A stretch of DNA of 64,000 nucleotides from Chloroflexota bacterium (GTDB taxonomy: Bacteria > Chloroflexota > UBA11872 > UBA12225 > JAJDUF01), in contig JAJDUF010000016.1 in assembly GCA_022826725.1 (NCBI GenBank), forward strand, positions 248,001 through 312,000, in the 5' to 3' direction. A model generated the notes under the pieces. That model saw only the letters and a list, made by a program, of their open reading frames with translations, was not told the origin of the DNA and made no database searches. Of the stretch, positions 42,866 to 47,740 are shown in pieces. Made by a program: the position numbers and the translations under genes. Position 1 is the first letter of the stretch. Every line of letters starts with the position of its first letter.

Positions 42866-43162
42866 CTATGCTGCCTTACCTCGTGCCCGGATTTCTTGCT
42901 CTAGGCGCTCCAAGACCCAGCGCCGGGCCAGCGCCGTGGCGTTCAGTTCCTCCTCACGAGCGAGGGACTCCAACTGCGCCAGCGTATCGGCGTCAAGGGG
43001 GATGGTGACGCGGTCGAAGAGCTTGTCCGCAAACCGGGCCTTGACCGGCTTGAACTCGTCCTCATAGTCGGTAGTGTCGTGGGTATCCCAGAACTCGGCC
43101 TCTTCCGCGATAGTCTTGAACTCTGGGATGCGGCTCTTCTTGCGCTCTTTCTGCATGGTCAT
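42866..43162 (-). CDS. brnA: BrnA-family antitoxin, copy 1
   Basis: 98 aa. N-terminal BrnA pattern KKSRIPEFKTIAEEAEFWDT followed by HDTTDYEDEF, then a ribbon-helix-helix region (DRVTIPLDADTLAQLESLAR). BrnA neutralises the toxin and represses its operon. Overlaps the toxin stop by 4 bp. Identical to copy 2 at 90 of 98 positions. Confidence 0.88.
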   Translation of the reverse strand: MTMQKERKKSRIPEFKTIAEEAEFWDTHDTTDYEDEFKPVKARFADKLFDRVTIPLDADTLAQLESLAREEELNATALARRWVLERLEQEIRARGKAA

Positions 43163-43440
43163 CGTACTTCGCCTCGTTCAGCCCGGTAGCGACGGCGTTC
43201 CTGGCGACTTGCCGGCCGCGCGGTCACTGGATAGTAGACGCCTCCACCTTGGGGAGCAAGGATGGCCGTAAGCATCTCCCCGGCGCGGGTGAGTCCCACC
43301 GCACGGATGCGCTCCTTGTAGGTCGCGCTAATCATTGGATCGCCCTCACAAACCTCCTCGACCTCAGCAGGACTAACCCCGTGGCGGGCAATGTGAGCGG
43401 TATTCCAATCATCCCAGATGAGGCGACGAATGGGCGTCAT
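43159..43440 (-). CDS. brnT: BrnT-family toxin, copy 1
   Basis: 93 aa RelE-fold ribonuclease toxin. BrnT pattern: IWDDWNTAHIARHGVSPAEV, VEEVCEGDP, then GGVYYPVTARPASRQERRRY, whose basic C-terminal part holds the catalytic residues in the family. ATG 43440 fits the family start; the frame runs to 43515. Toxin gene first, antitoxin second, as is usual for this type. Confidence 0.82.
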   Translation of the reverse strand: MTPIRRLIWDDWNTAHIARHGVSPAEVEEVCEGDPMISATYKERIRAVGLTRAGEMLTAILAPQGGGVYYPVTARPASRQERRRYRAERGEVR

Positions 43441-43460
43441 GCTGTCATCATCACCGCCGC

Positions 43461-43757
43461 CTACGCTGCCTTGCCACGTGCCCGGATTTCTTGCTTCAGG
43501 CGCTCCAAGATCCATCTGCGTGCCAGCGCCGTGGCGTTCAGCGCCTCCTCACGAGCAAGGGTGTCCAACTGCGCCAGCGTATCGGCGTCAACGGGGATGG
43601 TCACACGGTCGAAGAGCTTGTCCGCAAACCGGGCCTTGACCGGCTTGAACTCATCCCAATAGTCGGTCAGATCATGCGTATCCCAGAACTCGGCCTCTTC
43701 CGCGATAGTCTTGAACTCTGGGATGCGGCTCTTCTTGCGCTCTTTCTGCATAGTCAT
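43461..43757 (-). CDS. brnA: BrnA-family antitoxin, copy 2
   Basis: 98 aa, same length as copy 1 with eight substitutions (among them T30L and E34W in the THDxTDYxD segment). Overlaps its toxin by 4 bp. It ends 20 bp before the start of toxin copy 1, so both modules may be one transcript of four genes. Confidence 0.88.
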   Translation of the reverse strand: MTMQKERKKSRIPEFKTIAEEAEFWDTHDLTDYWDEFKPVKARFADKLFDRVTIPVDADTLAQLDTLAREEALNATALARRWILERLKQEIRARGKAA

Positions 43758-44035
43758 CGTACCTCACCTCTTTCGTGCCGGTAGAGGCGGCGTTCCTGGC
43801 GACTTGCCGGCCGCGCGGTCACCGGGTAGTAGGTATCTCCCCCTTCATCGCTTAAGATGACGGCGAGCAACCTACCCGCATCGGTGGGGCCAATGAGCAT
43901 GATACGCCCGCTATGACCTTCCCGCATTATGAAGTCACCTCGGCACACTTCCTCCACCTCGTCAGGAACCACTGCGTGGCGGGCAATGTGAGCGGTATTC
44001 CAATCATTCCAGATGAGGCGACGAATGGGCGTCAT
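43754..44035 (-). CDS. brnT: BrnT-family toxin, copy 2
   Basis: 93 aa, aligns to copy 1 without gaps. Residues 1-20 differ once and 71-93 twice, but 24 of 30 differences fall in residues 31-70 (GDFIMREGHSGRIMLIGPTD against GDPMISATYKERIRAVGLTR). ATG 44035 matches the start of copy 1; the frame is open to 44059. Confidence 0.82.
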   Translation of the reverse strand: MTPIRRLIWNDWNTAHIARHAVVPDEVEEVCRGDFIMREGHSGRIMLIGPTDAGRLLAVILSDEGGDTYYPVTARPASRQERRLYRHERGEVR

Positions 44036-44147
44036 GCTGTCATCACCAGTGTAGAGCACTCTGACACATCACTCAAGCCGCGTTCCTCGACCAGGCGCGC
44101 ACCGCGGCGCGGGTCGTCGGCCGGCGCCCGCGAGCCGGTTGCCCTAG

Positions 44148-44225: not shown

Positions 44226-45791
44226 GTGGAATCAGCCCTGCAGTCGCCGCGTTTCTACATCACCACCGCCATTGACTACCCGAATGCCGCTCCGCATATC
44301 GGGACCGCCCTGGAGAAGGTCGGGGCAGACGTGATGGCGAGGTTTCGGCGAATGCAGGGGATGGACACGCTCTTCTCGATGGGTCTCGACGAGAACAGCC
44401 AGCACGTACTGCGCGCCGCCGAGGAGGCCAACGTGTCGGCGCGGGCTTGGGTGGACCGGATGGACGAGGTCTTCCAGGGAGCCTGGGCATCCCTGAACAT
44501 CTCCTATGATCGTTTCATCCGCACCACCGAGGAGGTCCACATCGCGGCCTCGGAAGAGCTGTTTCGCCGCTCGCTGGAGCGCGGCGACATCTACAAAGGC
44601 ACCTACTCCGGCTGGTACTGTCCGAACTGCAACACGTTCTACGACGACGATGATTTGGTGGACGAGCGCTGTCCCAATCATCCGACGCTCACGCCGGAGT
44701 GGCTGGACGAGGAGAACTACTTCTTCGCGTTGAGCCGCTACCAGGAGCCGCTGGAGCGGTACATCGCAGACCACCCGGACTTCATCGTGCCCACGACGCG
44801 GCGCAATGAGGTGCTGGGCTGGCTGCGGGACGGGCTACGGGACTTCTCCACCTCGCGGCTGGTGCGGAACCTCACCGGTGAGCGTTGGGGTATCACCGTC
44901 CCTGGGGACGACGACCACGTCATGTACGTGTGGTATGACGCGCTCACGAACTACCTCACGTCCGCCGGTTTCGCGCACGACGACGAACGGTACGCGCGCT
45001 ACTGGCCGGCCGATGTACACGTGATCGGCAAAGACATCACCCGCTTTCACTGCCTGTACTGGCCGGCCATGCTGATGAGCGCGGGAGTTCCGCTGCCGCG
45101 GCAGGTCGTGGTGCATGGCTGGTGGAACTTGGAAGGCAAGCCGTTCTCCAAGACCACCGGCAACGTGCTGGACCCGCGAGACGCCGTCGCGGAGTTCGGT
45201 ACCGACCCGGTGCGCTACTACCTCATGCGCGAGGGGTCCTGGTTCCAGGACGGCAATTTCGCGCGGGCCAACCTCGTCCAGCGCTATAACGCGGAGTTGG
45301 CCAATGACCTGGGGAACCTGCTCAACCGGACGGTGACGATGATCGGCCGTTACTGCGACGGCCGGCTGCCCGCCGGGAGCGCCAGCGCCGCCGGCGAGCG
45401 GGAGACGGCCGTCCAGCACGCGGCGGAGACGGCGCTGCGGGACGCGACCGCGGCGCTCGACGGCTGGGAGTTCGGCCGGGCGCTCGACGCGATCTGGCAG
45501 CTGGTGCGCCGGGGCAATCAGTACATTGACGAGTCGCAGCCGTGGCGCTTGGCCCGCGACCCGGCGCAGCGGGCAGTGCTGGAGGCGGTCCTGGCAACCA
45601 GCGCCGAGAGCCTGCGCTTCCAGGCCACTCTGCTCGGCCCGTTCATGCCTGGGACGGCGGACCGGATGCTCGCCCAACTGGGCCTCGACGGGATTGCGCC
45701 GGGCGCGTGGCGCGACCTGCGGTGGCAGCCGGACGGATCGGGCCGGCCGGTCCCCGGCGGCTCGCCTCTGTTCCCGCGGCTGTCGGCATAG
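44226..45791 (+). CDS. metG: Methionyl-tRNA synthetase
   Basis: 521 aa class I synthetase. HIGH-like motif PNAAPHIGTALE near the start; zinc knuckle WYCPNCNTFY and ERCPNHP; KMSKS-like motif KPFSKTTGN. Anticodon-binding helical domain follows. The C-terminal EMAP-type tRNA-binding domain found in some forms is absent. GTG start at 44226 after CAGGAGGTAAGGGCC. Attaches Met to initiator and elongator tRNA. Confidence 0.97.
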   Translation: MESALQSPRFYITTAIDYPNAAPHIGTALEKVGADVMARFRRMQGMDTLFSMGLDENSQHVLRAAEEANVSARAWVDRMDEVFQGAWASLNISYDRFIRTTEEVHIAASEELFRRSLERGDIYKGTYSGWYCPNCNTFYDDDDLVDERCPNHPTLTPEWLDEENYFFALSRYQEPLERYIADHPDFIVPTTRRNEVLGWLRDGLRDFSTSRLVRNLTGERWGITVPGDDDHVMYVWYDALTNYLTSAGFAHDDERYARYWPADVHVIGKDITRFHCLYWPAMLMSAGVPLPRQVVVHGWWNLEGKPFSKTTGNVLDPRDAVAEFGTDPVRYYLMREGSWFQDGNFARANLVQRYNAELANDLGNLLNRTVTMIGRYCDGRLPAGSASAAGERETAVQHAAETALRDATAALDGWEFGRALDAIWQLVRRGNQYIDESQPWRLARDPAQRAVLEAVLATSAESLRFQATLLGPFMPGTADRMLAQLGLDGIAPGAWRDLRWQPDGSGRPVPGGSPLFPRLSA

Positions 45792-45815
45792 CGGCAGCCG
45801 GCCGCCCGGGCGCTG

Positions 45816-45843
45816 TTGACAGCGAGCGACACTATGGTAGACT
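45816..45843 (+). promoter_or_regulatory. Strong promoter of the structured RNA
   Basis: TTGACA (45816-45821), 16 bp, TAGACT (45838-45843). The -10 lies at the foot of a DNA inverted repeat (ACTAGGCGGTAGGT at 45841-45854 with ACCTATCGCCTAGT at 45926-45939), which might also serve as an operator. Confidence 0.7.
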
Positions 45844-45872
45844 AGGCGGTAGGTGAAAAGGAGGTGATGCCT

Positions 45873-45938
45873 ATGGACAGTAGTAGCGCTAGTCGGCACG
45901 CCCTGTCTATGTGCATTCACCTCGTACCTATCGCCTAG
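45873..45938 (+). CDS. 21-codon small ORF or leader peptide
   Basis: Encodes MDSSSASRHALSM then CIHLVPIA, ending TAG. Its Shine-Dalgarno, AAAAGGAGGTGAT (45856-45868), is complementary to the whole 16S 3' tail and sits 8 nt before the ATG, far stronger than any other site in the window. The site pairs within the long hairpin, so translation may be controlled by folding. Three Ser codons in a row follow the start. An ATG at 45867 is too close to the site to be used. Confidence 0.45.
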   Translation: MDSSSASRHALSMCIHLVPIA

Positions 45939-46017
45939 TTCAACACCAACGGCGAGCCGGGAGGTACGGGTGAATACCGGCGCTGGGTGGGCGCGTGCTG
46001 CCTAGTGCATAGCAAGA

Positions 46018-46062
46018 CCGCCCGGGACTGGTCCCAAGTGACCACTCTCGGGCGGTTTTTCG
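46018..46062 (+). terminator. Intrinsic terminator of the structured RNA
   Basis: CCGCCCGGGA (46018-46027) pairs with TCTCGGGCGG (46046-46055, one G-U), followed by TTTTT (46056-46060). Confidence 0.85.
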
Positions 46063-46070
46063 TTGTCTCG

Positions 46071-46290
46071 GCTCCCGTATGGTCCCCCGACAGGGGTAGG
46101 TTTTTTGTATGGGAGGGGGTTGGACCTAACCCCCGGCCCCTTCCCTTCAGGGAAGGGGAGCAGCGCAGCGAACGGGGAGCGATGAAGGGGCCTGGATTCC
46201 CGCTTTCGCGGGAATGACGAGGGTCTGGGCACGGTGAATCACGCCCCTACACGGAAAACCTACCCTTGTGAGGGGTGAGGGAGGGGGCCA
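46071..46290. repeat. Mosaic of palindromic repeats
   Basis: In order: a shortened family A unit with CCCCGACAGGGGTAGG and T6, family B (CCCCGGCCCCTTCCCT, 46131-46160), family D (46194-46219) and AAAACCTACCCTTGTGAGGGG (46255-46276). No gene fits this stretch. Confidence 0.75.
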
Positions 46291-46314
46291 TCAATCTCAG
46301 GGAGACTGCCAGCC

Positions 46315-46986
46315 ATGAGACGTCGCGGTGTGGTGCTCGGCGGCCTCGTCGCGTGTACCCTGACCGCGTGCAACGTTGCCGGTCTCGGTGGGCTACGCGG
46401 CTCGGGGATCATCCGCGCCGAGACTAGGGACATCAGGAGCTTCGGTCAAGTCGTCGTCTCCGGGGACGCGCGGGTGTCCATCACCCAGGGGGATCGGCCT
46501 TCGCTGGTGGTCGAGGCGGACGACAACCTGTTGGAGTACGTGCGGAGCGAGGTAGACGACTTCGCCCTGCGCCTCGGGTTTGCGGGTACCGTCGGCGGCT
46601 ACGCCCCCACACAGCCGCTGACGTTCCGCCTCACGGCGCCCCGTCTCCGGGGCCTGGAGCTGGACGGCGCCGGCGCAATCGAAGCGACCAATATCAATGC
46701 GCCGCGGCTGGTGCTGGAGATCAGCGGCTCCGGCCGGGTGCGCCTTACCGGAAGGGTTGACGAGCAGTTCGTCACCGTGAACGGATCAGGCACGTATGAC
46801 GCCGCCGGGACCGAATCCGAGACCGCCCGCGTGCGGGTCAACGGCTCGGGGGCAGCCCTTGTCTGGGCGCGCGATACACTGACGGCGCGGCTCAACGGCA
46901 GCGGCCGGATCAGCTACTACGGGCAGCCGCAGGTGAGCCAGGACATCACCGGCTCCGGCCAGGTCAAGCACCTTGGCGCGCGGTAG
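46315..46986 (+). CDS. GIN-domain (DUF2807) lipoprotein
   Basis: 223 aa. Lipobox LTAC at C19 implies a lipid anchor. The body is the DUF2807 head-GIN beta-helix: repeated SGSGRVRLTGRV, NGSGTYDAAG, NGSGAALVWARD, NGSGRISYYG and TGSGQVKHLG turns, with SFGQVVVSGDARVSITQGDR near the start. Role unknown; such domains are usually surface-located. Ribosome binding site AGGGAGACTGCCAGCC. Confidence 0.85.
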   Translation: MRRRGVVLGGLVACTLTACNVAGLGGLRGSGIIRAETRDIRSFGQVVVSGDARVSITQGDRPSLVVEADDNLLEYVRSEVDDFALRLGFAGTVGGYAPTQPLTFRLTAPRLRGLELDGAGAIEATNINAPRLVLEISGSGRVRLTGRVDEQFVTVNGSGTYDAAGTESETARVRVNGSGAALVWARDTLTARLNGSGRISYYGQPQVSQDITGSGQVKHLGAR

Positions 46987-47595: not shown

Positions 47596-47740
47596 CCCCC
47601 CTATGGTCCCCTGACAGGGGTAGGTTTTTCGGCGGGACTCACCCATTGACGGGCCAAAGCCGCACGGATAGTGCCAGGTGTGGTGCGGCTTTGGCCTGTC
47701 ACCCGGCCCCCTCTCCAAATGTTGGAGAGGGGGTGTAACG
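47596..47740. repeat. Family A and C repeats flanking a perfect 14-bp hairpin
   Basis: Family A remnant CCCCTGACAGGGGTAGGTTTTT (terminator-like) at about 47606-47627; the perfect inverted repeat GGCCAAAGCCGCAC/GTGCGGCTTTGGCC with 17-nt loop (47652-47696, no T-run); and family C CCCCTCTCC-AAATGTT-GGAGAGGGG (about 47709-47733). Confidence 0.75.

Follow-up and report, generated by a model that had tools for sequence, protein, structure and literature searches.

Here we describe a small RNA gene of one bacterial phylum, the Chloroflexota; the gene is real and had not been catalogued before. In the window, i.e. the whole 64-kb stretch of DNA that was analyzed, a promoter, an unusually strong Shine-Dalgarno sequence (SD), a short ORF and a terminator follow each other within about 250 nucleotides (Table 1). 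The element recurs at over 50 other Chloroflexota loci scattered through the phylum, usually with one copy per genome. Two helices compete within it, its reading frame is conserved and no fixed gene is located downstream. This RNA looks like a ribosome-controlled switch rather than the leftover of another gene; that it is a free-standing small RNA gene operating as a two-state, ribosome-gated switch we rate as an even chance. A possible new structured RNA had been proposed at this site, and this is supported by the phylum-wide recurrence, by compensatory base changes and by absence from Rfam. A literature search found no description of this RNA. Standalone structured RNAs spread over a phylum are rare finds, and the literature searched has little on the RNA biology of Chloroflexota.

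Table 1. Features of the RNA gene, in window coordinates.
Feature	Position	Strand	Details
Promoter	45816..45843	+	-35 TTGACA 45816-45821; 16-nt spacer; -10 TAGACT 45838-45843; TG upstream of -10
Probable transcript	45850..46062	+	about 210 nt; start placed 7 nt past the -10 box, end from the terminator
SD AAAGGAGGTGAT	45857..45868	+	pairs with the 16S tail of the source genome over 12 contiguous bases
Helix A	45861..45923	+	SD GAGGTGA (from 45861) with anti-SD arm TCACCTC (to 45923)
Helix A extension (A-inner)	within 45861..45923	+	TATGGACAG with CTGTCTATG, over the start codon
ORF MDSSSASRHALSMCIHLVPIA	45873..45938	+	ATG 45873; stop TAG 45936-45938; 21 codons
Helix B, outer	45886..46008	+	45886-45901 with 45993-46008; 81% complementary
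Helix B, inner	45915..45975	+	45915-45928 ATTCACCTCGTACC with 45963-45975 GGTACGGGTGAAT; stop codon in apical loop
Anti-SD (16S-tail mimic) CACCTC	45918..45923	+	within the ORF; two rival partners
Intrinsic terminator	46014..46060	+	arms 46014-46033 and 46040-46059; T-run 46056-46060

A probable transcription unit with an extended Shine-Dalgarno sequence

TTGACA-N16-TAGACT, the promoter of the original prediction, was present and was the sole sigma-70-like site in 45700-46400 (shuffled sequences: 0.1). In most of the relatives, hexamers resembling TTGAC and TGCTATCC occupy the corresponding position. The intrinsic terminator, also predicted, was found too: its arms are 85% complementary and are followed by T5, and this GC-rich stem closes the unit at about 46060. 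A simple terminator scan did not list it. Judged by sequence, the RNA is probably an independent transcription unit with its own promoter and terminator, in the window as well as in the relatives.

The SD has no other exact copy in the 64-kb window. The 16S genes of the source genome end in GGATCACCTCCTTTCTAC; therefore, the SD pairs over 12 unbroken bases (duplex energy -22.0 kcal/mol). The 13th base, A45856, is opposite a C in the 16S tail. Thus, the proposed complementarity to the complete 16S tail was slightly overstated, and the 12 contiguous pairs stand.

A family across Chloroflexota

Conservation in close relatives, on which the original prediction had been made to depend, was examined in a genome of the same genus (G001, a Chloroflexi MAG, contig JAJDZR010000309.1). 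There, too, the unit follows metG, in the same position, and neither promoter hexamer differs from that of the window. The hairpin core, from AGGTGAAAAGG through the last codon of the ORF, has 1 change in 85 nt, with flanking DNA about 86-91% identical. The single core change, A to G, converts Ile to Val and is compensated by a T to C change in the facing arm. Start, length and stop of the ORF are kept, with this one amino-acid change, and so is the terminator stem.

A scan of 84,980 species was then made with the pattern AAAAGGAGGTGATGNNNATG-N30-60-CACCTC. Eight records matched; seven were from Chloroflexota and all seven share the anatomy of the element. The eighth, from Saprospiraceae (L038), has a 6-codon ORF at a gene end, lacks the anatomy and was taken as chance. 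In a set of 400 genomes of the phylum six matched the pattern, and none matched a reversed-pattern control. Searches of whole genomes brought further copies from many family-level lineages, amounting to dozens of loci. What the copies have in common is a promoter that ends shortly before the SD, then the SD itself, a 3-nt spacer and ATGGA or a closely similar sequence. The ORF has 15-24 codons and in most lineages contains CACCTC or a sequence close to it; a second inverted repeat extends across ORF and 3' UTR, and a terminator comes last. The letters of the spacer and the codons vary between lineages.

A stricter phylum-wide pattern re-found only known copies. A covariance model built from two same-genus sequences detected nothing else in the class; two weak extra matches were antisense to the element itself. 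Sequence divergence was too great for the model to reach the relatives; SD-anchored patterns were needed instead, which themselves miss divergent copies. Of 16 pattern matches in the G161 class, 4 belonged to different genes, whose ORFs have 45 or 123 codons, and were discarded. Three f168 genomes (L145, L146, L156) carry a short gene with a perfect SD, MDDGLSDLMR.. of 45 codons, a conserved small peptide unrelated to the RNA. A c-di-GMP-I-GGC riboswitch is located near one copy of the element (L091:1477-1569). A mobile repeat was rejected; BLAST gave one match in the own genome and none in viral contigs.

Nor did the element turn out to belong to a known family such as the T-box, another outcome that would have counted against the original prediction. 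Rfam 15 gave no family match in the window at gathering score and none for the element itself up to E=5. For the relatives, no gathering-score match fell on the element in 10 loci, and in 6 loci nothing came near gathering score at E<=1. By score and by E-value T-box and other known families were therefore rejected. 6S RNA (RF00013), searched in the own genome, had no match and was rejected as well.

Two helices compete for the 16S-tail mimic

Folding of 45845-46070 yielded -112.8 kcal/mol (z -5.0; 0/200 shuffles were equally stable). The mimic has two competing partners. In helix A it pairs with the SD. Helix B joins ORF sequence to the 3' UTR and, across copies, usually places the stop codon in its loop. 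Because the helices share sequence, both cannot form fully; the forced states A and B are 0 to about 9 kcal/mol apart in energy. When folding was started at 45845, the SD was paired to the anti-SD arm at 0.93. When it was started at 45848 or later, this pairing was <=0.02, and helix B (0.86-0.87) held the mimic and left the SD mostly open. The SD-burying hairpin requires 45843-45849, located between the -10 box and the expected +1 at about 45850, i.e. part of its stem is promoter DNA. The sequestering hairpin of the original prediction thus does form in the longer fold; with the expected start, however, it may be an alternative and not the resting state, and the rival helix B had been missed.

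Both helices were examined in 12 Anaerolineae-type copies. For helix B, 120/120 cells were paired, and in 8 of 10 pairs both sides had changed, i.e. the changes were compensatory. No shuffle out of 500 reached this, and slid registers were 27-45% paired. In 14/14 Anaerolineae-type copies helix B is a perfect helix of 10-16 bp, and in all of them the stop codon sits 8-22 nt past its 5' arm. For helix A, 120/120 cells were likewise paired, and the anti-SD side changed only where pairing survives. The SD side is nearly invariant, so that few two-sided changes of A occur within alignments; this is partly due to the use of the SD as search pattern. The inner part of helix A, spacer and start codon against ORF, does vary between lineages. 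We compared 17 lineages, represented by one copy each: for A-inner, A and B, own partners beat those borrowed from other lineages (0/20000 permutations each), a result to which base composition could contribute. A 33-copy version of this comparison agreed. Shuffle z-scores of helix B were weak in several GC-rich lineages. In the murE/birA-linked family f131, no pair of helix B has changed on both sides; the sequences of this family resemble each other too closely for formal pair counts to be informative.

Neighbouring genes

The biotin ligase gene birA is next on the same strand at 28 of 48 loci, in several families and even with differing upstream genes, and in some loci it starts only about 17-35 nt past the terminator. 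This linkage invites the reading that the RNA is a cis-acting leader or attenuator of the next gene, in which ORF translation would set readthrough of the terminator and the regulated gene would have been lost in the window. We regard this as unlikely for the family. In the lineage of the window, in family f78 and in Caldilineaceae-type genomes the RNA is followed by a convergent, a distant or an unrelated gene. The window itself has a gene for a DUF2807 protein about 250 nt on, beyond repeats; in f78, L041 and L042 the next gene is convergent, and in L045 tRNA genes are located downstream on the opposite strand. In the genus of the window, f78, L040-L042 and G161, birA is elsewhere, and GGAGGTGA is absent within 1.5 kb of it. 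Moreover, the terminator remained intact in predicted folds, both of complete transcripts and of their 3' portion on its own. At several f131/f138 loci (e.g. L043, L098, L104) inspection by eye revealed a TATCCT-like box 10-15 nt upstream of the start codon of birA, suggestive of leaderless birA transcription. An attenuator that lost its gene, one option of the original prediction, is disfavored as well: outside the birA-linked relatives the RNA keeps its own promoter and terminator even where the next gene is convergent. A role in cis may exist where birA is linked, yet it cannot explain the family. Conservation tied to metG was rejected, since the metG loci of a neighbouring family have no GGAGGTG-hairpin after metG.

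Some further observations concern the surroundings. The RNA and the gene that follows it are separated by GC-rich repeat-like stretches at 46080-46290 and 47690-47740 (CCCCCGGCCCCTTCCCT, GGATTCCCGC..GCGGGAAT); in the same-genus genome this region holds an insertion that is related to them but not the same. On the minus strand of the window, 42866-43515 and 43461-44059 contain two adjacent CopG-antitoxin/BrnT-like toxin pairs, a tandem-duplicated toxin-antitoxin module (Pfam PF12441 above, PF04365 just below cut-off). One genome (G509:C1) carries two murE-RNA-birA stretches (L104, L105) 1.3 Mb apart; in the 2.8 kb surrounding the RNA they are 96% identical. They are either a true duplication or the result of assembly or strain mixture.

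The short open reading frame

The 21-codon ORF was confirmed as predicted. In 48/48 copies examined it is open over 15-24 codons, and the two other frames of the same copies scatter over 1-299 codons (4-299 and mostly 1-9). In family f57, length differences are multiples of three, i.e. in-frame indels. Conservation of the ATG is no independent evidence because it belonged to the search pattern. Recurring features of the peptides are an MD- start and later an EV or VASP motif. The frame and the length, kept across the copies together with the start, and these recurring motifs could mean that the RNA is a small-peptide gene with an autoregulated mRNA and that the 15-24-residue peptide is the product. 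We consider this improbable as well. The ratio pN/pS was near 1 in many comparisons of copy pairs; hence there is no clear sign of selection on the peptide. The C-terminal motifs that recur are the unavoidable translation of the RNA motifs CACCTC and GAGGTG, and lineages differ in the frame in which they read the anti-SD, as SP or as HL. The reading frame seems to be of more importance than the peptide. A type I toxin mRNA, which would encode a short hydrophobic peptide, was rejected as the peptides are hydrophilic and variable; on the minus strand of 45700-46400 no promoter-like site for an antisense antitoxin RNA was found.

The 12-bp SD:16S pairing and the frame kept in 48/48 copies are consistent with ribosome binding and a structurally controlled short ORF, as had been suggested. 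A pure 30S-binding decoy, in which the over-long SD sequesters initiating ribosomes, would fit a duplex exceeding the usual length and an expected transcript start just before the SD, but is very improbable, as an incidental ORF would not hold length, frame and stop position so tightly.

A proposed mechanism

The two-state, ribosome-gated switch may operate as follows. A transcript of about 115-215 nt would begin just upstream of the near-perfect SD. In state A the CACCTC mimic in the ORF would pair with the SD, often together with the start codon, and the RNA would be closed to ribosomes. In state B the mimic, or adjacent sequence, would be held in the second hairpin of ORF and 3' UTR, leaving the SD open. 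The 30S subunit and the internal 16S-tail mimic would thus compete for the SD, and the RNA would switch between both states in the cell. A translating ribosome would run into helix B up to the stop codon in or near its loop, unpair the 5' arm of B and reset the RNA, which would couple translation initiation to RNA shape. The output of the RNA, be it the 3' arm, its stability, a held 30S subunit or the peptide, may then depend on initiation capacity. More tentatively, one may think of a dedicated sensor of free 30S subunits or initiation capacity, in which ribosomal subunits and the 16S-tail mimic compete for the perfect SD, translation of a throw-away ORF resets the RNA and the output acts in trans; this we deem possible, with the odds against it. 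If the two-state model were true, the RNA would be a self-contained device converting ribosome availability into RNA shape without a protein factor, and a leader-like module would be working as an independent gene.

Comparison with known RNAs

The RNA adjoins metG and has hairpins followed by a terminator, reminiscent of T-box leaders; this was a lead only. Unlike these it is located downstream of metG, not upstream, and has no Rfam T-box match. With 6S RNA it has in common a strong-looking promoter, a single copy and refolding; its SD and ORF are without counterpart in 6S RNA. The erm leaders are translational attenuators with a leader peptide, i.e. they have a short ORF, competing hairpins and an SD that can be hidden. 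The Chloroflexota RNA shares these three properties. It differs in that the contested SD is that of the ORF itself, that the terminator may be constitutive and that many genomes have no following gene on the same strand. VcdRP of Vibrio cholerae and SR1 of Bacillus subtilis are dual-function small RNAs, both coding and regulatory (PMC8672173, PMC8152036). In contrast to these, the Chloroflexota RNA has no known base-pairing target, its peptide is poorly constrained and two rival folds are conserved; what it shares with VcdRP and SR1 is the predicted short free-standing transcript with a small ORF.
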